DNA of 52,142 nt from a virus (IMGVR_UViG_3300000525_000005:1-52142); one strand, 5' to 3'; shown: positions 3,247-26,202, counted from the stretch's first letter. The notes: a model not told the origin generated them from the sequence alone. Program-made: numbers and translations.

Positions 3247-3990
3247 TTACTTATTTAAGGCTAAGCTTAAGTGTTCCTTTAAATCAGACGTAGAAAGTCC
3301 ATTAGGTAGGGTTATAGGCGTTGCCCATGAAGGGTGATACAGATCCATCTCAGATTCTAGTTTGACCTTGTCATGGGCGATCTCAGGAAGTTCTTGCCAG
3401 CTCATTTCTTCTATCAAATTGTCATTGACCCATTTAAGTACATGTAGGTCATCTTTAATCATTAAATAGATAGCATCATGAATCAAAGAGACGGGGAATA
3501 TATCATAACGATATTCAGATACCCAGACCTTCTCCATGAACGCTACAGCAGCTCTATTATTCAATAGGCCATAACTCTGACCTGAGATAGCATTACCTAC
3601 GCTACGAGCCTCTGAGGAGCTTATAGTAGCTGTAGCACTATTACCTAGAATAGATCTGGCTAGTACAGGGGTTCTTACCCTTAAGCCAAATGCTACAGTG
3701 GCATATCCCAACTCACAGCACTCTTGTAGTTTACGAGCAGTCCAATCAGCAGACTCTTTATAGAGTGTGTGATAATTCTGAAAGATGGACTTGGATTCAT
3801 ACTCTGTAAAACCACAATTCTTCATAAGTCCTATGTGGGATCCTCCGTACGTAAGTAAAAAGGTAGGTTCTTTAGAAGCATCACGTACACTTTTAGAGTC
3901 CTTAACAATGCTGTTGATCTGGGATACGTTATATTCTTTGAGAGAGATTTCATTGATGGAATTAATATCACCTGTAATGAGAATCTCCAT
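3247..3990 (-). CDS. Split family A DNA polymerase, C-terminal fragment (motifs B and C)
   Basis: 247 residues forming the last third of the polymerase domain. Motif B (O helix) reads RDASKEPTFLLTYGG, matching R-x3-K-x3-F-x3-YG, and motif C is IHDAIY with the second catalytic aspartate. Motif A and the exonuclease are in the separate gene at 5830-8105. The fragment has its own ATG with a strong ribosome binding site (AAGGAGACATAATT), so it is translated as its own protein and should assemble with the N-terminal part in trans. Five small genes and an HNH-like gene lie between the two halves. The break falls in the variable stretch between motifs A and B. I see no intron core that would join it to the upstream part. 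Confidence 0.9.
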   Translation of the reverse strand: MEILITGDINSINEISLKEYNVSQINSIVKDSKSVRDASKEPTFLLTYGGSHIGLMKNCGFTEYESKSIFQNYHTLYKESADWTARKLQECCELGYATVAFGLRVRTPVLARSILGNSATATISSSEARSVGNAISGQSYGLLNNRAAVAFMEKVWVSEYRYDIFPVSLIHDAIYLMIKDDLHVLKWVNDNLIEEMSWQELPEIAHDKVKLESEMDLYHPSWATPITLPNGLSTSDLKEHLSLALNK

Positions 3991-3992
3991 AA

Positions 3993-4292
3993 TTATGTCT
4001 CCTTATCAAAACTACCCGTTAAAGGGATGACATCATAGTGAACCATACCATTATTAGTAAAGTCCTCTAAAGTGGTGGCATTACGGACAGAAGTAAGAAT
4101 ACGTTGAGCATACTCTGTTTCTTTAATGGCCCACTTATAATGTATATCATTAGAGAGGGTTTCAATTTCTTGTTCAAGACTAGTTATTAAATTATTTTGA
4201 ATGATATCAAAAGCAGTAGATGAATAAGCAGTCATTGCTGGTGATTGAATTTCTGTGTACTGGTCATACGTACCGTAGTGAATTATTTGCAT
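3993..4292 (-). CDS. Hypothetical protein between the polymerase fragments
   Basis: 99 residues, mostly helical and acidic, no recognised domain. The start at 4292 overlaps the stop of the upstream gene, and its end lies 2 nt from the polymerase C-fragment start. It is one of the genes that separate the two polymerase halves. Confidence 0.65.
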   Translation of the reverse strand: MQIIHYGTYDQYTEIQSPAMTAYSSTAFDIIQNNLITSLEQEIETLSNDIHYKWAIKETEYAQRILTSVRNATTLEDFTNNGMVHYDVIPLTGSFDKET

Positions 4293-4756
4293 TAGGTTTC
4301 CCTATAGTAGAATTTATTTTCACATTCAATACAGTGAAGATAATTCATTTGTGAGCAATCAGATTGTGGTACAACATCATTAGGAAGATTACAGTGAGGG
4401 CAGTAAGCTACTAAGCAACTGTCAGCTACTTTATACTGGTTTAAAACCAGCATTTGATTGTACAGATTAGAAGTTTCTGATTCTACATAATCTTTACCAC
4501 AGTTTATAGGAGTATCCCCATAATGAGATGTATGAAAACCAATTATCCAATGATCATTAGGTATATCATCATGTATTACTTCTTCTCTCATGTCTGAAGA
4601 GATACTAGACCAATTAAGGCCACCATGGACTGATACAGGGATATGCTCACAACTAACACCATACCAAGGACTAGATGGCGGCAAGACTAAGTAACCATTA
4701 CCCCATCCCTGTTCCCTATGAGTATTCCATGTATTTTCTACAATGAAAGTTTTCAT
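4292..4756 (-). CDS. Hypothetical protein with a possible C-terminal zinc ribbon
   Basis: 154 residues from the ATG at 4756 (MKTFIVENTW), preferred over an in-frame ATG 24 nt upstream because GGGGA lies about 10 nt before it and it overlaps the upstream stop as ATGA. The C-terminal part has paired cysteines, CPHC and CIEC about 26 residues apart, a possible zinc ribbon. The first residues (MKTF, Trp-Asn) resemble the neighbouring small MKTYT-type proteins, so the N-terminus may be related to them. Function unknown. Confidence 0.65.
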   Translation of the reverse strand: MKTFIVENTWNTHREQGWGNGYLVLPPSSPWYGVSCEHIPVSVHGGLNWSSISSDMREEVIHDDIPNDHWIIGFHTSHYGDTPINCGKDYVESETSNLYNQMLVLNQYKVADSCLVAYCPHCNLPNDVVPQSDCSQMNYLHCIECENKFYYRET

Positions 4757-4920
4757 GGCTGATCCCCGTATACAAAGCATTCAATATTCTCAGTGAACAT
4801 TCTAATGTCCTCATTATTAAAAGATTCCATGGCTTTATCTTTTGCCTCATCTTCAGTATCAGCATAAATAATGATAGTTCCTTCTTTATTCTCTGATATT
4901 AATACTTCATACTTATTCAT
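4753..4920 (-). CDS. Small protein of the MKTYT-like family, copy 3
   Basis: 55 residues (MNKYEVLISEN...). A good ribosome binding site, AGGAGATGAATC, precedes the ATG, and start and stop both overlap the neighbours as ATGA. It shares with the two genes upstream an opening beta strand (MxxYxVLI), a short turn, a second strand and a helix starting D/S-x-DEA. Function unknown. Confidence 0.65.
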   Translation of the reverse strand: MNKYEVLISENKEGTIIIYADTEDEAKDKAMESFNNEDIRMFTENIECFVYGDQP

Positions 4921-5093
4921 GATTCATCTCCTAGAATAAAGAATTCAACATGCTGGAAATCACCAGAGTCTAAGACATACTTCTCATCAGACCACTCATT
5001 TGAAACCATGTTCCAAGCTTCATCCCTTGATTCTGCTTCAATTTCCACTGTCTTTGAAGAAGTCTCTTCAATTAATACTGTATATGTTTTCAT
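4917..5093 (-). CDS. Small protein of the MKTYT-like family, copy 2
   Basis: 58 residues (MKTYTVLIEETSSK...). Same plan as its neighbours: MKTYT strand, a second strand (VEIEAES), then a helix starting RDEA. The ribosome binding site is weaker (AAGAAGG). The start lies 3 nt after the upstream stop, and the stop overlaps the next start (ATGA). Function unknown. Confidence 0.65.
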   Translation of the reverse strand: MKTYTVLIEETSSKTVEIEAESRDEAWNMVSNEWSDEKYVLDSGDFQHVEFFILGDES

Positions 5094-5096
5094 ATT

Positions 5097-5276
5097 TTAA
5101 TTGCCTTCTTCATTAATTAAAGTCACATTTCCACCATCATACGTAGCTTCCCTTAAATCCATATTAAAAGTATCTTGGTATGTTTGAGCATCATCATAAG
5201 CTTCTTCCGCAGAGTTAGCAGAAAATGTTCGTTCTACATTCCAAGTTTCTGATATTTTAAAAGTATATGTTTTCAT
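5097..5276 (-). CDS. Small protein of the MKTYT-like family, copy 1
   Basis: 59 residues from the ATG at 5276 (MKTYTFKISETW...). A start further upstream at 5315 would overlap the HNH-like gene and lacks a ribosome binding site, while AAAGGA lies 7 nt before 5276. The helix start SAEEAYDDAQ aligns with RDEA and EDEA of the next two genes, so these look like tandem duplicates. Function unknown; small acidic proteins of this kind are common among phage early genes. Confidence 0.7.
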   Translation of the reverse strand: MKTYTFKISETWNVERTFSANSAEEAYDDAQTYQDTFNMDLREATYDGGNVTLINEEGN

Positions 5277-5293
5277 ACTGTTTCCTTTTATGT

Positions 5294-5833
5294 TTAAGTA
5301 TCTGAGTATTTCCATATAAAATTACCAGCAGTTTTTAATTTACCTTTGGCACACTTAACAATAGATGGATGAGTAACACCTGTCCTTTCTGATGCAATAG
5401 TTATAGAAGCATAGGAATCTATATACTCACTATCTAAAGTGTACTGACTAACGCTACGAACAGGGTAGCTAACAGTAGATTGAATTTTAGAGCTATTACG
5501 ATTATCCCAATAAAGGTTATCTGCATGTATGTTATGTAAATTACCATCAATATAGGTTAGGTACTTATAGCTATAGGGGTTATCCATAAACTGTTCAGCT
5601 ACCAAATGGGCTACCTTTTCGCTTGATGATTTACCTAAGTAATAAAGATGAACCCTAGGAAACTTACCTGTAAAGTCTAGTTTCCTAGAATTACCATAGA
5701 AGTTAGGTGAAATAGACCTCATCTCACCGTTACGATTAATGGCATAAGCAATGGTGTACCTTTTAACATGGTAAAACTGATCGTCAGGATGTACCTGACT
5801 ATTGGTAAAATTAACGGGTCTAGAAATTATCAT
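5294..5833 (-). CDS. HNH/NUMOD1-type endonuclease, probably degenerate, inserted in the split polymerase locus
   Basis: 179 residues. The middle resembles an HNH_3 nuclease core: YIDGNLHNIHADNLYW compares with the usual HxDGNxxNNxxxNLxW. The first histidine, normally in NHIDGN, is tyrosine here (TYIDGN), so cleavage activity may be lost. The C-terminal part, from VRSVSQYTLDSEYIDSYAS on, resembles a NUMOD1 DNA-binding repeat (helix-turn with a final FIWKY). The start overlaps the stop of the N-terminal polymerase part (ATGA). It lies exactly at the second break of the polymerase gene, which suggests that a homing gene caused the split. Confidence 0.75.
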   Translation of the reverse strand: MIISRPVNFTNSQVHPDDQFYHVKRYTIAYAINRNGEMRSISPNFYGNSRKLDFTGKFPRVHLYYLGKSSSEKVAHLVAEQFMDNPYSYKYLTYIDGNLHNIHADNLYWDNRNSSKIQSTVSYPVRSVSQYTLDSEYIDSYASITIASERTGVTHPSIVKCAKGKLKTAGNFIWKYSDT

Positions 5834-8105
5834 TTTATATCCTTAAACTTGTTATAGAATTCAATGGCACTATAAGTAGTACCATCATGATTTATAGTGT
5901 CTGTATCTTTAAAGGATAAGCCATTCACTTCAAAGCAGCGTTCTGTAGTAGCTTGTTGGACATTAGGAAGTTTATCAGGCCAATAGGTATGTGCTCTAAG
6001 AGCATGGCCGTCATACCCGTCAATGTAGACTTTTATCTTATTTTTATCTTTAGTTAGTAGAGCATTGATTCTATCTTCTACAATTATGTTCGCTACAGTT
6101 CGTTAGGTTGTAACCGTGGGCTAACCACTGCTATACGTCACCACATAGTTCAGACTATATCTTCACCTTCAGCATTACCTGTTTAGGTGTCCTCCGCTTC
6201 GGATCACTTGACCCTACTCCCCAATGGGATAGTCGTTAAACGTCCAAGTACTTAGTACAAGTTTCGCTTGGTATTGTCTCGTTGAGAGTTCTACCAAATT
6301 CAAAGGATTTAACACAATACATTTCTGTACTGTTCGCCTAGATTTAAGCTAGAGAAATCAGCTCCTACGAATAAATAACCCTTTGGGGGTTTAAAGCAGG
6401 ATTTAACCGCTTTTCCATATTTACTCCCTCCAGATGGTAAATTCTGAAGGTTAATCTTAGAGCTAGACATCCTACCAGAAAGTGTACCGTTGAGATTGAA
6501 GTTACCATGTAAGTAATGCCATCCACCTTTTTTAAATGATTCCTTGAATGCTGGTATGAAAGTGCTAAGAATCTTATCAACTTGGCTTAAGTTAATTAGA
6601 GACTCAAGTAATTCCTTAATCTCATCATCCTTAGTATGATTAATGAGCTTGGCTAGTATCTTAGCACCAGTAGCAGGATTCTTGGTAGGGGTGAAGTCAA
6701 TCTCAGGTAATTGTAATACCTCATAAAGAAGTACTTGTAATTGGTTAGGACTGCTAGGATTGAAAACCATATCATTAACCTTATCCATACCATGTACTTT
6801 GGTTTTTAGTTTAGAGTTAATATCTGCAAGAGCATTAACTTGTATAGTATGAATAGCATCTTTGGTATATTTACTATCTAAGACAATATCTAGATTCTGA
6901 TTACTTAAATTTAATAAGTAGGCTTCAGTTTCTTTAACTTGACCCATATCAATAGGCATACCCATTAGCTCCATCTGAACGATAAGCTTAATACTAGGTA
7001 ACATAATTTCTTCATAGATCCCTAACTGATCATCTTTGAGCATCATAGGATAGTACTTGTTGAATACATAATAAGTAGCTACACAGTCTTCTACATTATA
7101 AATTAGTAATTCATCTACTGGTATTTTAGAGATATCAGTAACATCAATACCCCAATTACCCATGTAAGGTTGGGCTAGTACTTTTAAACCAAGTTCATTA
7201 CCTGCTGTAGTATTGGTAGCTAAGTAAGCAATAATCTTAGTGTCGTGTATGTTCTTACACATAACGTCTAGTCCATGAAGCATACCTCTATAGTCTAGTG
7301 GATGTTTCATAAAACAGTTAAAGATAATCTGTTTGATATCAAAAGTTGCATTATGATAGATAACCTTACCGGTATATCTTTCAAAGAATCTCTTAATAAG
7401 GGTATGAATTTTACTGGTGTCATAAGCTTTATGTTTAATATGGGCTGATAGTCCAGACCTCTCATTCCATGCAAATGCAATAGAACCTAAACCACCTTCA
7501 TTAAGTTTTAAGCCATAAGTCTCAACATCACAAGTGATTGTAGGTTTGTTATGTAAGCCGTCTAAGGCCAGTTGAAAGGCTTCAAGGTCAGTATTCTGAT
7601 AGTACTGAGGGTCTAACAGAACATCTTCACCTAGAGGTACTAGAGTACCATTGATATGATTGGCTAATGTCTCAATAGACATATCAATTTTATGAATCTG
7701 ATTTGGATTATGTAAAAGTACACCGTAATTTAAACCATAACAAATAGATATATGAGTGAATCCTTTAACTGAGCAAGGTAATACATATCCTGTATGTTGT
7801 TCTGCTTTACGCTCACCAGTTAATACTTTGAAGTAAGCAGCATCAGCTACAAAGACTGTAGTGATACCTAGTTTAACTAAAGCTGGTAATAGGTAGGAGA
7901 GGTATTTTTTGGCTTGTGTAGCAGTAACCTTGTCGTTAGGGTAATGTAAATCAAATGCAATTAATTGATCTAAAGCAACTCCTAACTTTACAAGTGGGTC
8001 TACGTAATAGTTCTTAATCTTATCTGGTTTAAAGTATTTCTCTTTGATAAGAATAGCCACTTGGTATTCTTCTTCTAAGTTTCCTGCAAAAGTAGCATGA
8101 TTCAT
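5830..8105 (-). CDS. Split family A DNA polymerase, N-terminal part (exonuclease plus motif A), interrupted by a group I intron
   Basis: Spliced as 8105-6347 joined to 6080-5830, giving 669 residues. The 3'-5' exonuclease shows CDVETYGL (D193, E195), HNATFD and NVEDCVAT. The polymerase part has SGRMSSSKINLQNLP and motif A ADFSSLEDRIN with catalytic D583. Unspliced, the frame ends 11 codons after motif A, so splicing is needed. Exon 2 continues INALLTKDKNK and ends FYNKFKDIK at a TGA that overlaps the HNH-like start. Motifs B and C are in the separate gene at 3247-3990. Both exon lengths are frame-consistent. This is the N4 gp39-type replicative polymerase. AGGA precedes the ATG at close spacing. 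Confidence 0.92.
6081..6346 (-). mobile_element. Group I intron (266 nt, no ORF) in DNA polymerase motif A
   Basis: The 5' exon ends in T and the intron ends in G, as group I introns require, and removing 6346-6081 restores an unbroken ADFSSLEDRIN. A P7-type pairing is visible: GACTAT (sense, 6234-6229) with ATAGTC inside GATATAGTC (sense, 6158-6153). The sense strand also carries AACTCTCA near the start of the core, shared with the intron at 13768-14651. There is no room for a homing gene, so it is a minimal intron. The full fold was not computed, and a repeated TTA/GTA at the borders leaves two bases of ambiguity that only the U/G rule resolves. Confidence 0.87.
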
Positions 8106-8553: not shown

Positions 8554-8761
8554 AGTATTTCCTTATAAGCACAAAAAAGTCCCTTATATATATATAATAT
8601 AAGAGACTATAAGTAACTAGTTCCTTCCGTACACAAGTACTGACGTACTTGTGTACTGCTAATAGAGACTAGTATAGGGTAGTGGTGTTGGGGTTAAGGT
8701 TATGTTTTTTGAGTGGAAGAGACAAATGCAGTTTAACGGTGATTTGAAAGTCTGTCAAGAA
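8554..8761. other. Gene-free gap in the replication operon
   Basis: 208 nt without a supported gene. It holds an AT run (8587-8602), the large inverted repeat at 8629-8656, and two related strings AGAGACTATAAG and AGAGACTAGTATAG on either side of that repeat. No tRNA or T-tract terminator is seen. It is the only sizeable gap between the helicase block and the polymerase block, so a promoter, processing site or replication element is possible. Confidence 0.5.
8629..8656. repeat. Perfect 12-bp inverted repeat with TGAC loop
   Basis: Arms GTACACAAGTAC and GTACTTGTGTAC match perfectly around a four-base TGAC loop. No T-tract follows on either strand, so it is not a typical terminator. On the - strand the loop reads GTCA. 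It may act as a cruciform, a transcript hairpin or a protein-binding site. Confidence 0.85.
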
Positions 8762-13055: not shown

Positions 13056-14947
13056 CTAGTAAATATGGCGGGCTAAGCTAAGTATCCAATCCTTAAGCTC
13101 CTTTTTAAGTAGATTAGGCTGACGAGCTTTGATCTCTCTTAATGCGCAGATCTGTAACTCTGGTGGGAAGCGACCAAGGTAAACAGCACAGGCTTTAGCA
13201 TTTTCTGGGAGGATGTTATGAGCGATTAGGCCCATAATAGCCCAACGAATACTCATGTTAGAGCTGATTTCAAGACCTTCTGGATCATTAATAATGTCCT
13301 CAAAGCTATGTAAGCTCTTATAAAGTGTTAAGAAGCTTAGGAACTCAGTAGCAACACCCTCACCTAATAAAGAGCTCACAAGGGACTTGTGAGTGCTGTC
13401 TAGCTTTTTACCATCAGTTGTATCAGATAGCATTTCAAGAGTGCGTGGGCAAGCGTACGGAGTTGTTGCGTCAGGATCAAAGGTATAGATGTATTTAGGG
13501 AATCGTCCAATAAATGAAGTGATACGAATATCAATGTGGCCAGCAGCCCATTCCATCCACTCTTTATGGTTTAATTCTAAATAGAAGTGAGCGAATCGTG
13601 AAATCAGTGCTGTGCTCATAGGATTAACAATCGCATTATCATCATCCATGTTACCAGCAGCTAATTTGAATAGGTTAGGATGAAGTTTATGCTGTCCAAT
13701 CATATGATCTAGTGTGAATTTATAAGCAGCAGCCTGAGTAGACTGTTTAGCTGAGTTAAATTCATCGCATTGTTTTCTATATAAGTCGCAACACTTACAT
13801 ACGTTCTCATTACTTACGTAAATGAACTGCTACATGTCGCCATGCAGAGAAGACCATATCAAGACCCTAAAGTTCTTAGGGTCGTTACCGTTTCCAACAT
13901 CATTAGCTTATGTTGTACTCCCATTTCAGGGATGGTCGTTTGGCGTTTAAATGAAATTTGTCGCATATCCAAATTGCTGTAAATTATTACTATTTACATA
14001 TTCATCATAAGCTTTAGCAGCTTGTTTTTCACAAGTAAATCTTCCTAGAGGAATGGTCTCGCCTTTGAACCCAATACATACACACCATTTGTTCCTCTGC
14101 TTAGACCATGAAACACCTACGTACTGTGAAGAGCTGTTTTTACGCTTCTTACTAGCATTAGTGAATCTGTTTTTTTGAAGTCCTGTATCCCAGGCATGTT
14201 GACAGTTCTCAGACTGTGTAACCCATTCTAAGTTAGTAGGTGAGTTATTAAGTTGATTTCCGTCTTTATGATTGACAACAGGTTTATTCAAAGGATTAGA
14301 TACAAAAGCTAAAGCTACTAAGCGATGAATCTGGAATTTATGTACTTTACTATTTCTGTATAAGTTGATACATAAATACCCTCTGTGATTGGTATATGGT
14401 TTTACGTAATTCCTGTTTTTATACTTGTATTTAGAATTAGGGCATCTTCTTACGTTTCCTAAATTAGATACATTATAAGGTAGGTCTTGAACGTCTTTCC
14501 AAATTTCATTATTTAGCACAGGATTGTCTCTTTGTATTAGTAAGTTGAACTCAAGTATAACGAGTAACCAACCATAATACAATTAAATGAGAGTTTCCCT
14601 GTTTAGGTAACTTTTGACATACAATTACTTGTATGAAAGCCCGATTATTTAAGCATCACCAACCAACCGTCATAACCATCAGGGATAGGGTCACCTTCTA
14701 ATGGGAAAGTATCAAATGGGATGAAACTAGCTACACCTTCTGAGAAGCCAGGAAGCCCATTAAAATCACTGGGGTCCATATCAGTTAATCGTAGATCAAT
14801 AAACTTAAGGTTACGTTTCTTGGCAAGCTGTCTTCCAATAGAAGATTTACCAATTCCAGGAGATGAATGCAGGAATGGGCAGATAGGTTTCTTAGCATCC
14901 CACAGCATTTCAATATGTGGTTTAACTTGTGAGATAGTAACTTGCAT
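13056..14947 (-). CDS. MoxR-like AAA ATPase (N4 gp24-type), interrupted by a group I intron
   Basis: Spliced as 14947-14652 joined to 13767-13056, giving 335 residues. Walker A is SSPGIGKS (residues 28-35). Splicing restores WLVMLDEFNSA, with Walker B D100 and E101 right after the splice point, and continues AAAYKFTLDHMIGQHKLHP into AAGNMDDDNAIVNPMSTALISRF, the usual sensor and arginine-finger region. Without splicing the frame stops one codon after the break. It pairs with the VWA protein downstream; such complexes remodel proteins or assemblies with ATP. A ribosome binding site AAGGAAAATACT precedes the ATG. Confidence 0.9.
13768..14651 (-). mobile_element. Group I intron (884 nt) with HNH gene, in AAA ATPase Walker B
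   Basis: The 5' exon ends in T and the intron ends in G, and removal restores LVMLDEFNSA in frame (296 + 712 nt). P7-type strands are visible: GACCAT (sense, 13937-13932) with ATGGTC inside GATATGGTC (sense, 13857-13852). These are the same positions and nearly the same letters as in the polymerase intron (GACTAT/ATAGTC), with compensating bases, and both share AACTCTCA near the 5' side. The endonuclease gene at 13947-14582 occupies a peripheral loop between the 5' part and the P3-P7 region. Confidence 0.88.
13947..14582 (-). CDS. Intron-encoded HNH homing endonuclease with AP2 domain
   Basis: 211 residues. NUMOD4-like start (EIWKDV...YNVSNLGNVRR), HNH_3 core (IHRLVALAF then VVNHKDGNQLNNSPTNLEWV with the catalytic NHKDGN histidine intact), and a C-terminal AP2-type DNA-binding domain (SQYVGVSWSKQRNKW through AAKAYDEY). 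This is the standard layout for phage group I intron endonucleases, which cut intron-less alleles to spread the intron. No clear ribosome binding site precedes the ATG at 14582, so the exact start or its translation control is uncertain. Confidence 0.9.
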   Translation of the reverse strand: MYYGWLLVILEFNLLIQRDNPVLNNEIWKDVQDLPYNVSNLGNVRRCPNSKYKYKNRNYVKPYTNHRGYLCINLYRNSKVHKFQIHRLVALAFVSNPLNKPVVNHKDGNQLNNSPTNLEWVTQSENCQHAWDTGLQKNRFTNASKKRKNSSSQYVGVSWSKQRNKWCVCIGFKGETIPLGRFTCEKQAAKAYDEYVNSNNLQQFGYATNFI

Positions 14948-23431: not shown

Positions 23432-23612
23432 TATTATTAGAGACACAGAAGCACAGTTACTAGTAGCTTTGATGATTTCTACTTATATAATCTATGATCT
23501 AAAAGATAGTATTTTATGGTTAGTTATCTTATTAATATGGTTTATTAACTTTGCATTAAGGGCTTCTTATTTAAGCGTCAAAGCCACAGGCGGTGACGCT
23601 AATGGAGAATAA
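23412..23612 (+). CDS. Small membrane protein before the terminase
   Basis: 66 residues from the ATG at 23412 after GAGGAGGGTTT; an open frame upstream lies inside the previous gene. Two hydrophobic segments (LLVALMISTYIIY and ILWLVILLIWFINFAL). It overlaps the genes on both sides. A similar small membrane ORF is common beside N4-like terminases; its role is unknown. Confidence 0.65.
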   Translation: MKTMMNNIIRDTEAQLLVALMISTYIIYDLKDSILWLVILLIWFINFALRASYLSVKATGGDANGE

Positions 23613-26202
23613 AACTGGAGTAAGTAGGTTTAAGCGTAAAGAGATAGGTGAGTGGTTAAAAGAGGTAGATTACTCTGATGACCCTAACTATATTCCTAGT
23701 AGTTTTGCACTAGAGTTTATTACTTTTATTAAATTGGTTAATGGTGGTGAAGGGGAGGAGAACGTATCCCCTGTTATCCACTTAAAGATGTTGGACAAGT
23801 TAGATGGGGATATTAGAAACGTAGCTAATATGATCTTTCGTGGTGCTGGTAAGACTACGTTAATGGCTGAGTATCTTATTCTATTCTTAGCAGTGTATGG
23901 ACGCTTGCCCGCCTTTGGGCGGGTCAAGCTAGTCCTATATGTATCAGATAGTATTGATAACGGTGTTAAGTCAATGAGAAAAAACTTAGAATCTCGTTGG
24001 GAAAGTAGTGATTTTCTACAGAAGTATTTACCTAAGAGTGGTCTTAAGCTAACTGATATTAGGTGGGAATTTAAGAACATTAATGGCACTAAGTTTGTTG
24101 TTAAAGGTTATGGCGCTAAAGCATTGCCATTATCATCTAAGTTATATACTGAAGATGGTTTCACCACTATTGGGGACTGCTCTATTGGAGATATGATTTA
24201 TAGTCCTGAGGGTGATTTGAGAGAGATTACCCAGAAGAGTGAGATATTCAATAAACCTATGTACCGCATTAAGCTTAGAGATGGTAGGTCTATTGATGTT
24301 AGTGATGATCATATTAATAGTGTGGTTTTAAACACTAATCCCAATAATATAGCTAGATATGAAGAATATGACATATCTACTAAAGACTTAATGGAGCAGA
24401 AGTTATGGCATAGAAGAGGTTACGATTTAGCATTTATTAAGAATACTGATCCAGTAAAATATACTGAGAAAAAGTTACCTATTGATCCTTATACTCTTGG
24501 TTTGTTGTTAGGTGATGGGAGTATTAAGAGTAACGGAGCTAGTGTTCTACACTGCCATAAAGATGATTGGGAATTCTATAAGACACAGATACCTTATAGG
24601 TTAGGTAGTCAATACGTGGATAAGAGAAATACTAATGTCATGTCTATCAGTATTATGGACTTAAATAAGCATACTTTAGACTTAGGTATTAGAGGTCATG
24701 GTGACTTTAAGTTTATCCCTGATATGTACCAAAGAGGTAGTATTTCACAAAGGTTGAGCTTAGTTCAGGGCTTAATGGATACAGATGGTACAGTACTCCC
24801 TAACGGTAGATGTCAGTACACAAGTAACTCTAAAAAATTAGTAGATGGTTTAGCAGAACTTGTACGCTCGTTAGGTGGTACAGCACATATTTCTTGTAGA
24901 CTTAAATACTATAAAATAGAGGTTACTTTAAATACTATGAACTGTGCTCGTATACCTCGTAAAGCCAGTCGTATTAAGCCTAAAGAACGTTATAGAAATA
25001 TGATAGGTATTGAGAGCATTGAACCTATTGAAAGTGTTCCTAGTCAGTGTATAGCTATAGATAGCGACTCTCATCAATACTTAACTGAGGGTTATACACG
25101 TACCCATAATACTGGTATTCGTGGTGTTAAGGAAATGGGGACCAGGCCACAAATGGCCATCATGGATGATTTAGTATCTAACGATGATTCCCGATCACCC
25201 ACTGTTATTCAGGCCATTAAAGATACAGTAGGTCAGGCTATTAAGTATGCACTTCATCCTAAGAGATCTAAATGTATATGGCTTGGTACTCCTTTTAATG
25301 CTAATGATCCTTTATATGAGGCAATGGAGTCTGGTGCATGGGATGTAAGTGTTTATCCTATATGCGAGAAGTTCCCTTGTAGTAGGGAGGAGTTTAGAGG
25401 TGCGTGGGAAGATAGGTTTGATTATGATTACGTAGAGCTCATGTACGAGGAGTCTCTGGCCCAAGGTCAGGTTAACGGTTTCTACCAAGAGCTTATGCTA
25501 CAGATTATGTCTGATGAAGATAGGCTGGTATTAGATAATGATATTAAATGGTTTACCTTGTCGCATCTTATGGATAATAGGAGTAGCTTTAATTTCTACA
25601 TTACTACTGATTTTGCAACCAGTGAGAAGGAGTCTGCTGACTTTAGTTTCATTAGTGTTTGGGCCGTTAATAATAAAGGAAGTTATTATTGGGTAGATGG
25701 TATTTGTAAAAGACAGACAATGGACGTTAATATAGATAATCTGTTTCAGTTTGCTGTTAAATATAAACCGTTATCAGTAGGTGTAGAAGTATCAGGACAA
25801 CAGGGTGGTTTCATTTCTTGGATAGAAAGAGAGATGATGAGTAGGAATATTTATTTCTTATTAGCTTCTAGTAGTAATGAAAGTAAAGCAGGTATTAGAC
25901 CAACAGGTACTAAGCTTGAAAGGTTTAACGTGGCAGTACCAGATTTTAAACTAGGAAGATTTCATTTTCCGATTGAAAAGAAGTTAACAGTTCCAGTAAA
26001 AGAAATGCTATTAGAAATTAGTCAGGCCTCTATTGGCGGTTTCAAGAGCAAGCATGATGATGCTTTAGATACCGTTTCTATGTTGTCTCTTATGCAAATA
26101 TGGCTACCTAGTGAGGAGTCAAAATGGAAAAGGGCAGGGGATAACATATGGGGATTAGAAGCAGAAGAATCTTATTCAACTCTAAACAGTTACATCGTCT
26201 AA
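23593..26202 (+). CDS. Terminase large subunit containing an intein (N4 gp68-type)
   Basis: 869 residues from GTG 23593 (or 866 from ATG 23602, which has a plausible AGGCGGTG upstream). Extein: Walker A FRGAGKTT in the N-terminal ATPase, Walker B MAIMDDL after the intein, and a nuclease domain with YITTDFATSE and a final HDDALDTV. Excluding residues 177-506, the mature protein is about 539 residues, normal for the family. It drives DNA into the head using ATP and cuts the concatemer. The intein lies between VKGYGAK and TGIRGVKEMG, so splicing restores a continuous domain before Walker B. Activity should depend on protein splicing. Confidence 0.94.
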   Translation: MTLMENKTGVSRFKRKEIGEWLKEVDYSDDPNYIPSSFALEFITFIKLVNGGEGEENVSPVIHLKMLDKLDGDIRNVANMIFRGAGKTTLMAEYLILFLAVYGRLPAFGRVKLVLYVSDSIDNGVKSMRKNLESRWESSDFLQKYLPKSGLKLTDIRWEFKNINGTKFVVKGYGAKALPLSSKLYTEDGFTTIGDCSIGDMIYSPEGDLREITQKSEIFNKPMYRIKLRDGRSIDVSDDHINSVVLNTNPNNIARYEEYDISTKDLMEQKLWHRRGYDLAFIKNTDPVKYTEKKLPIDPYTLGLLLGDGSIKSNGASVLHCHKDDWEFYKTQIPYRLGSQYVDKRNTNVMSISIMDLNKHTLDLGIRGHGDFKFIPDMYQRGSISQRLSLVQGLMDTDGTVLPNGRCQYTSNSKKLVDGLAELVRSLGGTAHISCRLKYYKIEVTLNTMNCARIPRKASRIKPKERYRNMIGIESIEPIESVPSQCIAIDSDSHQYLTEGYTRTHNTGIRGVKEMGTRPQMAIMDDLVSNDDSRSPTVIQAIKDTVGQAIKYALHPKRSKCIWLGTPFNANDPLYEAMESGAWDVSVYPICEKFPCSREEFRGAWEDRFDYDYVELMYEESLAQGQVNGFYQELMLQIMSDEDRLVLDNDIKWFTLSHLMDNRSSFNFYITTDFATSEKESADFSFISVWAVNNKGSYYWVDGICKRQTMDVNIDNLFQFAVKYKPLSVGVEVSGQQGGFISWIEREMMSRNIYFLLASSSNESKAGIRPTGTKLERFNVAVPDFKLGRFHFPIEKKLTVPVKEMLLEISQASIGGFKSKHDDALDTVSMLSLMQIWLPSEESKWKRAGDNIWGLEAEESYSTLNSYIV
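24121..25110 (+). mobile_element. Intein with LAGLIDADG endonuclease in the large terminase
   Basis: 330 residues. Block A starts ALPLSSKLYTEDGFTTIGD, so residue 1 is Ala and not Cys/Ser. Block B has VSDDH. Two dodecapeptide motifs, LGLLLGDGSI and LVQGLMDTDGTV, mark a LAGLIDADG endonuclease. The end is SQCIAIDSDSHQYL..., then THN followed by Thr as +1. Cys in block F and THN-T fit class 3 inteins, which are common in phage terminases, but the Trp expected next to the block B His (DHLW) is Asn here (DHIN). Confidence 0.92.

Follow-up and report, generated by a model that had tools for sequence, protein, structure and literature searches.

A DNA polymerase in two pieces in an N4-like phage: probable docking modules of a decayed mobile cassette, and a candidate short ribosomal hop in its relatives

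The 52,142-nucleotide (nt) IMG/VR virus record IMGVR_UViG_3300000525_000005 (the window, that is, the whole stretch of DNA analysed) carries a family A DNA polymerase gene that is interrupted twice, by a group I intron and then by a break between motifs A and B. We propose that this polymerase is a two-chain enzyme, that a mobile cassette made the break, and that the tail and head found at the broken ends most likely dock the chains without covalent joining, a reading to which we assign a probability of about 0.74. Chain 1 would come from an mRNA with a self-removing group I intron, and chain 2 would be started separately at position 3990. Relatives of the gene matter more than the window itself for the significance of these results. 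It is moderately probable that the window holds the remains of a class of mobile cassettes that fracture phage polymerases and, while active, mask their own target by a compact programmed ribosomal hop. Such hops would form a family of short bypasses beyond that of T4 gene 60, and the docking tails would be encoded by the element and possibly derived from inteins.

The DNA analysed is part of the genome of an N4-like phage (Schitoviridae type), such genomes usually measuring 70-76 kilobases. The phage type is marked by a very large virion-protein-like open reading frame (ORF) and by the two-gene RNA polymerase usual for N4-like phages (JA-1 annotation; phrog_2051), and the best relatives of the DNA polymerase belong to the Schitoviridae, with exon 1 about 47% identical to N4-like polymerases. 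The initial annotation, made from the sequence alone, had placed the polymerase region at 3247-8105, in agreement with the ORF listing. It had also proposed a search for unbroken relatives, and in those that were found the same stretch forms a single ORF.

The first interruption had been said to obey splice rules, and the Rfam match and the protein read across the join bear this out. Family RF00028 (Intron_gpI) matches at 6361-6131 on the minus strand with 73.1 bits (E 9.8e-17; gathering score 50 bits), and joining U6347 to 6080 (intron 6346-6081, last letter G) gives GADFSSLEDRIN, the motif A native to relatives. The group I rule is satisfied in that the 5' exon ends in U, the intron ends in G and the conserved protein is restored; exons joined at 6347/6080 read GADFSSLEDRINALLTKD, in agreement with unbroken relatives, and alternative in-frame U/G joins gain or lose residues. 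The intron itself is ordinary. Judging from the covariance match and the exon join, it would remove itself from the mRNA of chain 1, a step that we consider likely as part of the reading as a whole. In Vibrio phage JA-1, an insertion that contains an HNH gene occupies the same polymerase codons (DFNSL^EDNVN); Rfam scored other insertions of this phage as group I but not this one. Homologues of N4 genes in JA-1, the DNA polymerase among them, are split by three HNH genes, for which carriage in an intron has been suggested as a possibility (PMC3670811).

The second break separates two fully open pieces. The spliced N-part has 669 residues and a single stop, at 5830, where its TGA overlaps the ATG of the downstream HNH ORF. 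The C-part starts with an ATG at 3990, preceded 8 nt upstream by AAGGAG, and holds motif B (R..SKEPTFLLTYGG) and the HDAIY motif. Because the N-part covers positions 12-198 of the 381-position Pfam model DNA_pol_A, in addition to the exonuclease, and the C-part covers positions 203-373 of the same model, the pieces abut within the family model. Unbroken relatives read ...DGYDGHSLRA..YF.D.MPDI.DTVESINSI...R..SK.PTFALTYQGT across the break region; the window breaks after LPNV, with the N-part continuing as QQATTERCFEVNGLSFKDTDTINHDGTTYSAIEFYNKFKDIK and the C-part opening with MEILITGDINSINEISLKEYNVSQINSI. These observations confirm an upstream part that ends between motifs A and B and a C-terminal part with its own ribosome binding site, and the ORF listing contains the HNH-like gene and five small genes reported between them. 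The earlier model of a spliced N-terminal protein plus a separate C-terminal protein with the other catalytic Asp is also the best supported, assembly and activity of the two chains being predicted from the genes. The break is more than a chance feature: unbroken relatives have one ORF here, and its position recurs in no fewer than eight further lineages.

The element supplies a tail of 36-45 residues to the N-part and a head of 24 residues to the C-part, neither of which is polymerase sequence. A second break site, site 1, lies 20-25 residues upstream of the window's site 2, at KVY^DGYDGH and around an HNH gene, in Klebsiella phage Pylas and Escherichia phages Pollock, Jura and SP5M, whose N-parts carry tails of the Pollock type (for example MGVTVYTVTIEGVDHHIRDDDTIVYDGKTYTGEEFYDAF). 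Site-2 tails in metagenomic contigs, such as PEERCYIAKVGGTDIHFRASDTLEYEGKTYTGEEFYEAF, match these site-1 tails at E 2e-7, and the presence of one tail module at two insertion sites implies that the tail belongs to the element. The tail of one fractured relative, L122 (AETTERCFQLKVG...), shares its opening with the window tail, and the heads of ten site-2 fractures align. Modelled alone, the window tail forms two hairpins and a helix (bb-bb-alpha; predicted local distance difference test score, pLDDT, 86); in a model of the L122 N-part, the tail is ordered and the palm, without its other half, is not. A Foldseek search with the tail model returned no match, and Pfam has no family for the tail.

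Tails of the Pollock group vary mainly at silent sites (for example, proportions of synonymous and nonsynonymous differences, pS and pN, of 0.48 and 0.07), and tails in nuclease-free fractures are still under selection (L167/L175, pS 0.37, pN 0.06). Since tail and head are selected at the protein level and outlast the nuclease gene, they are probably docking modules of a two-chain enzyme. The strongest alternative is that the chains reassemble through the polymerase fold alone, as precedents of reassembly in split NrdA and gp43 would allow (PMC2988022), with tail and head as passive leftovers; the same selection and persistence speak against this, and we regard it as rather unlikely.

Broken polymerases are scattered over a tree of N-parts, several of them strongly supported beside an unbroken sister (L122 with L105, L017 with L041, L042 with L058), which indicates that the break was acquired several times. 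A further alternative is that the window polymerase is a non-functional pseudogene with a replacement elsewhere. In favour of it, the record is a fragment and the window sits on a long tree branch. However, both parts are fully open, the catalytic motifs are kept, and five fractured relatives show only the broken copy in their own records. An intact polymerase elsewhere in the genome, which the initial annotation considered incompatible with a split enzyme, was not found within the 52,142-nt record, itself a genome fragment, and we consider a pseudogene improbable.

Two records among the relatives are unusual in their gene structure. The Pylas polymerase (L003, 3001-6281) is annotated as a two-exon spliced gene and contains no Rfam intron; its tail suggests two separate proteins rather than the annotated splice. 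L027 1-3300 (L080) has a site-2 fracture in which the HNH frame is continuous with a polymerase C-part without motif B, and it is either a deletion derivative or an assembly chimera.

The sequence gives no support for RNA or protein splicing across the second break. For protein trans-splicing, the tail would be the N fragment and the head the C fragment of a split intein, producing one covalent polymerase. Over 20 residues, a profile of the tails resembles block A in a PolB split intein of known structure (PDB 9hth, E 1.3e-4), and against the N-inteins of Aes508 and CP21 it scores above 2000 shuffles, and Aes508 offers the precedent of a phage polymerase with a group I intron, a homing endonuclease and a split intein. 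Against this, the first Cys/Ser is not conserved, HN is missing ahead of the junction, the head Asn is followed by S, R or Q (S being native in unbroken enzymes), the head profile matches no intein, and the 24-residue head is far below the 100-odd residues needed as a partner by a short N-terminal intein fragment (IntN). Splicing of the polymerase by an intein was therefore examined with profiles of the tail, the head and PDB entries and rejected as unlikely, because splicing residues are lacking; descent of the tail from an intein is possible. Also improbable is a second RNA intron joining 5830 to 3990. In its favour, gene halves separated by an HNH gene often point to an intron, a possibility raised for JA-1 (PMC3670811). 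Against it, Rfam found no intron at the window break or at five other site-2 loci, although it scored the first intron well; this null is weak alone, given that the JA-1 polymerase insertion was also missed. Moreover, selection acts on tails and heads at the protein level, the C-part is provided with a start signal of its own, and the putative intron would have to contain five genes.

The C-parts of the relatives show a further peculiarity. In the first split relatives examined, every C-part was out of frame at motif B. A scan of IMG/VR for any 5 nt inserted at PT^F or LT^Y recovered 17 stretches, 15 of them N4-like polymerases from 11 lineages and two unrelated. All 15 polymerase inserts (TAGCT, TAACT, TAATT, TAACC, TGACT, TAACG or TAACA) start with a stop codon directly 3' of the Thr codon, and in all 15 a stem of 8-13 base pairs (bp) ends 0-2 nt upstream of this take-off codon. 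A one-nucleotide scan after the Phe codon added four further lineages with UUU-C or UUU-U, one of which, L136, has a site-1 cassette. Skipping the insert restores the native motif exactly. Folding energies of the 42 nt upstream range from -13.1 to -23.8 kcal/mol in the 5-nt-insert lineages and from -10.6 to -19.8 kcal/mol in the +1 class, against control means over 64 unbroken genes of -4.9 (PT) and -6.1 kcal/mol (LT). Stems of at least 5 bp that end at the codon occur in 3/64 controls at PT and 11/64 at LT, the LT position being less specific. Shuffle z-scores reach -6.2 (L053), -5.4 (L026) and -5.8 (L042) and are weaker in L104 (-1.7) and L017 (-2.0). The take-off codon is number 36-47; half of the ten tabulated cases pair ACN with an ACN landing codon, and the other half have GCT or ATT. 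In 9 of the 11 genes tested, the downstream frame contains no ATG, GTG or TTG before the resume codon.

These features of the 5-nt insert, or of the +1 at UUU-Y, look like a short ribosomal hop analogous to that of T4 gene 60/MobA. Candidate loci, all at motif B of the C-part, are L053, L104, L017, L026, L042, L116, L121, L122, L125, L128, L130, L135, L136 and L138. Sequencing error was rejected as the cause of the frameshifts, as the unbiased scan recovered only stop-first inserts among the polymerases, each behind a hairpin. The window C-part has no coding gap, an open frame and an intact motif B without a hairpin (z +0.55), as expected because its nuclease is dead. Head and tail searches of isolate phages found no site-2 fracture with a hop, and a GTDB pattern scan limited to stop-type gaps at the PT^F position found none, so that the hop class rests on IMG/VR contigs. 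L128 and L132 are identical over 127 nt through the hop and then 73% identical; co-conversion was not relied on as an explanation, because 127 nt is a common assembler word length and a branch in the assembly graph is an alternative.

The likely target of the nuclease is indicated by Acinetobacter phage nACB1, in which an HNH-bearing insertion splits the polymerase within motif B (PTFA^LTYMG); the HNH product of this insertion is 50% identical to that of L104. Because an L104-like HNH sits there, this HNH type most likely recognises motif B. The nACB1 locus (L114, 3860-4710) is annotated as separate DNA polymerase genes; it probably represents a single gene whose motif B holds an HNH-bearing intron, the 3' end of the insertion being group I-like and the intron type assigned by eye only. 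Intact motif B was sampled in a pattern-selected IMG/VR set of at least 80 loci, at least 76 of them scored as polymerase, in which, among the matches listed, at least 57 were unbroken and at least 8 were broken at site 2 without an insert. When all site-2 fractures with a readable intervening region were tabulated, an intact HNH gene was present in 12 of the 13 with an insert, the exception (L026) keeping an eroded remnant, and in one of the nine without an insert (L163, whose HNH is of a different type); the remaining eight include the window. T4 offers a precedent for masking by such an insert: a homing endonuclease split gene 39, and the 50-nt bypassed insert of gene 60, after codon 46, may have protected against the nuclease (PMC3014915; PMC5009743). 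There, a stop follows the take-off codon and a 5' stem-loop has been proposed as the motor (PMC3014915; PMC5009743).

Several points weigh against our interpretation. The association of insert and intact HNH has a Fisher p of 2e-4 that is a guide value only, as the lineages are non-independent, and the value of 2e-5 obtained without L026, L163 and the window depends on exclusions picked after seeing the table; the HNH scoring rule was likewise chosen post hoc. The relatives are also metagenomic. The window tail alone matches weakly (best E 0.7), and its membership rests on position, on the TTERCF start common to L122 and on alignment. Finally, a structure model of the N-part leaves the truncated palm disordered.

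The observations are best explained by the following mechanism. A mobile cassette, comprising an HNH homing endonuclease gene flanked by tail- and head-coding sequence, probably made the break, fusing the tail to the N-part and the head to the C-part, with the two chains docking non-covalently. While active, the cassette would have to mask the motif B target, which lies some dozens of codons further downstream. In the relatives, this mask would consist of a hairpin and, after it, an insert of 5 nt or 1 nt to be skipped by the ribosomes: the hairpin ends directly before the Thr codon, a stop and two nucleotides follow, and re-pairing would occur 5 nt on (or +1 at UUU-Y). Because the insert tracks intact HNH and nuclease-free tails remain selected, the cassette would arrive with tail, HNH, head and masking insert, the nuclease would then die or be replaced, and the insert would later be lost while the fracture stays with its tail and head. 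The window would represent the end state, with nuclease residues lost, cargo genes moved in, motif B ordinary and in frame, and the fracture kept. Its HNH gene reads TYIDG where relatives have NHKDG or near variants, intact in 12 of them, and because of this catalytic decay the break can be read as the relic of a cassette that was once mobile.

A split as such is nothing new, since HNH-split N4-like polymerases are present in databases (Pollock, SP5M, Pylas) and have been reported for JA-1. These Schitoviridae share with the window the same enzyme, its halves likewise separated by an HNH gene; a tail homologous to the window's is present in Pollock, SP5M and Pylas, and the JA-1 interruption lies in the codons of the window intron. 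Unlike the window, Pollock, SP5M and Pylas are broken at site 1, Pylas being annotated as a spliced join. As in the T4-like genes-in-pieces (Aeh1 nrdA/mobE, gene 43 of phages 25 and 44RR, T4 39/60 with mobA), a freestanding endonuclease gene lies between the halves of an essential enzyme. In those cases the separate chains assemble: parts of split phage gp43 co-purify with activity and split Aeh1 NrdA is functional (PMC2988022), and T4 gp39 and gp60 assemble (PMC3014915); the window's two chains are predicted to do likewise. The window also differs from them in its family A N4-like polymerase, in a decayed nuclease with five cargo genes added, and in conserved tail and head modules common to the break sites, which we did not find described in the literature examined. 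Like the Aes508-type split PolB, it combines a polymerase with a group I intron, a homing endonuclease gene and split parts, and the tail may resemble N-intein block A; in contrast to Aes508, the enzyme is of family A rather than B and the system has no splicing residues.

The relatives resemble T4 gene 60/MobA in that the C-part gene lies 3' of a homing endonuclease and the gap falls at a comparable codon (36-47; 46 in T4), with a stop right after the take-off codon, a 5' stem-loop and a mostly re-pairable landing codon. They differ in a gap of 5 nt (or +1) instead of 50 and in a stem directly before the take-off codon; their hop is a candidate, and the window lacks the coding gap. To the extent of the literature examined, three things are new: the tail and head modules that the fractures share, the recurrence of fracture at each of two sites, and the short hops proposed as candidates. 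According to a 2016 review of recoding, bypasses like that of gene 60 but shorter, and with matched codons, had long been presumed to exist (PMC5009743), and the loci of the relatives look like such a set, with at least 11 lineages and five-nucleotide gaps that suit simple reporter tests. The window would represent a late stage of a homing element, in which the nuclease is dead, an essential gene is in two pieces and the docking ends are kept. For the T4-like cases, the way in which fractured enzymes come together again has been called an open question (PMC2988022), and the many natural pairs with conserved tails make it testable.

Table 1. Features of the interrupted polymerase locus in the window
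Feature	Position	Strand	Basis
Exon 1 of the DNA polymerase, with the 3'-5' exonuclease, the greater part of the N-terminal half and the beginning of motif A	6347..8105	-	ORF; PF01612 and PF00476 in the spliced protein
Group I intron, 266 nt, without an internal homing endonuclease ORF	6081..6346	-	RF00028; join restores GADFSSLEDRIN
Polymerase exon 2 (end of motif A to the site-2 break) plus element-encoded tail	5830..6080	-	Spliced ORF of 669 residues
Tail module RCFEVNGLSFKDTDTINHDGTTYSAIEFYNKFKDIK	5833..5940	-	Homologous tails at two break sites; alignment; fold model; purifying selection in relatives
Decayed HNH homing endonuclease gene (NUMOD1; NHKDG to TYIDG)	5294..5833	-	phrog_959, E 2e-11; NUMOD1; alignment
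Small cargo gene 1	5097..5315	-	ORF; no family match
Small cargo gene 2	4917..5093	-	phrog_25553, E 2.6e-5
Small cargo gene 3	4753..4920	-	ORF; phrog_38690, weak
Small cargo gene 4	4292..4756	-	phrog_2164, E 8e-10
Small cargo gene 5	3993..4292	-	ORF
Head module MEILITGDINSINEISLKEYNVSQ	3919..3990	-	Aligns with heads of nine other site-2 fractures; AAGGAG 8 nt upstream
Polymerase C-part (motif B, HDAIY), without motif B insert	3247..3990	-	PF00476 positions 203-373

Three further features lie elsewhere in the window. A second HNH homing endonuclease gene (NUMOD4, HNH_3, AP2-like) at 13947-14582 has an intact VNHKDG catalytic motif, and within the large terminase ORF at 23593-26202 there appears to be an intein (ALPLSSKLY...TRTHN) that is full-length, at about 330 residues, and matches LAGLIDADG_3. 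A perfect 12-bp inverted repeat, GTACACAAGTAC-GTCA-GTACTTGTGTAC, lies at 8629-8656, upstream of the polymerase operon.

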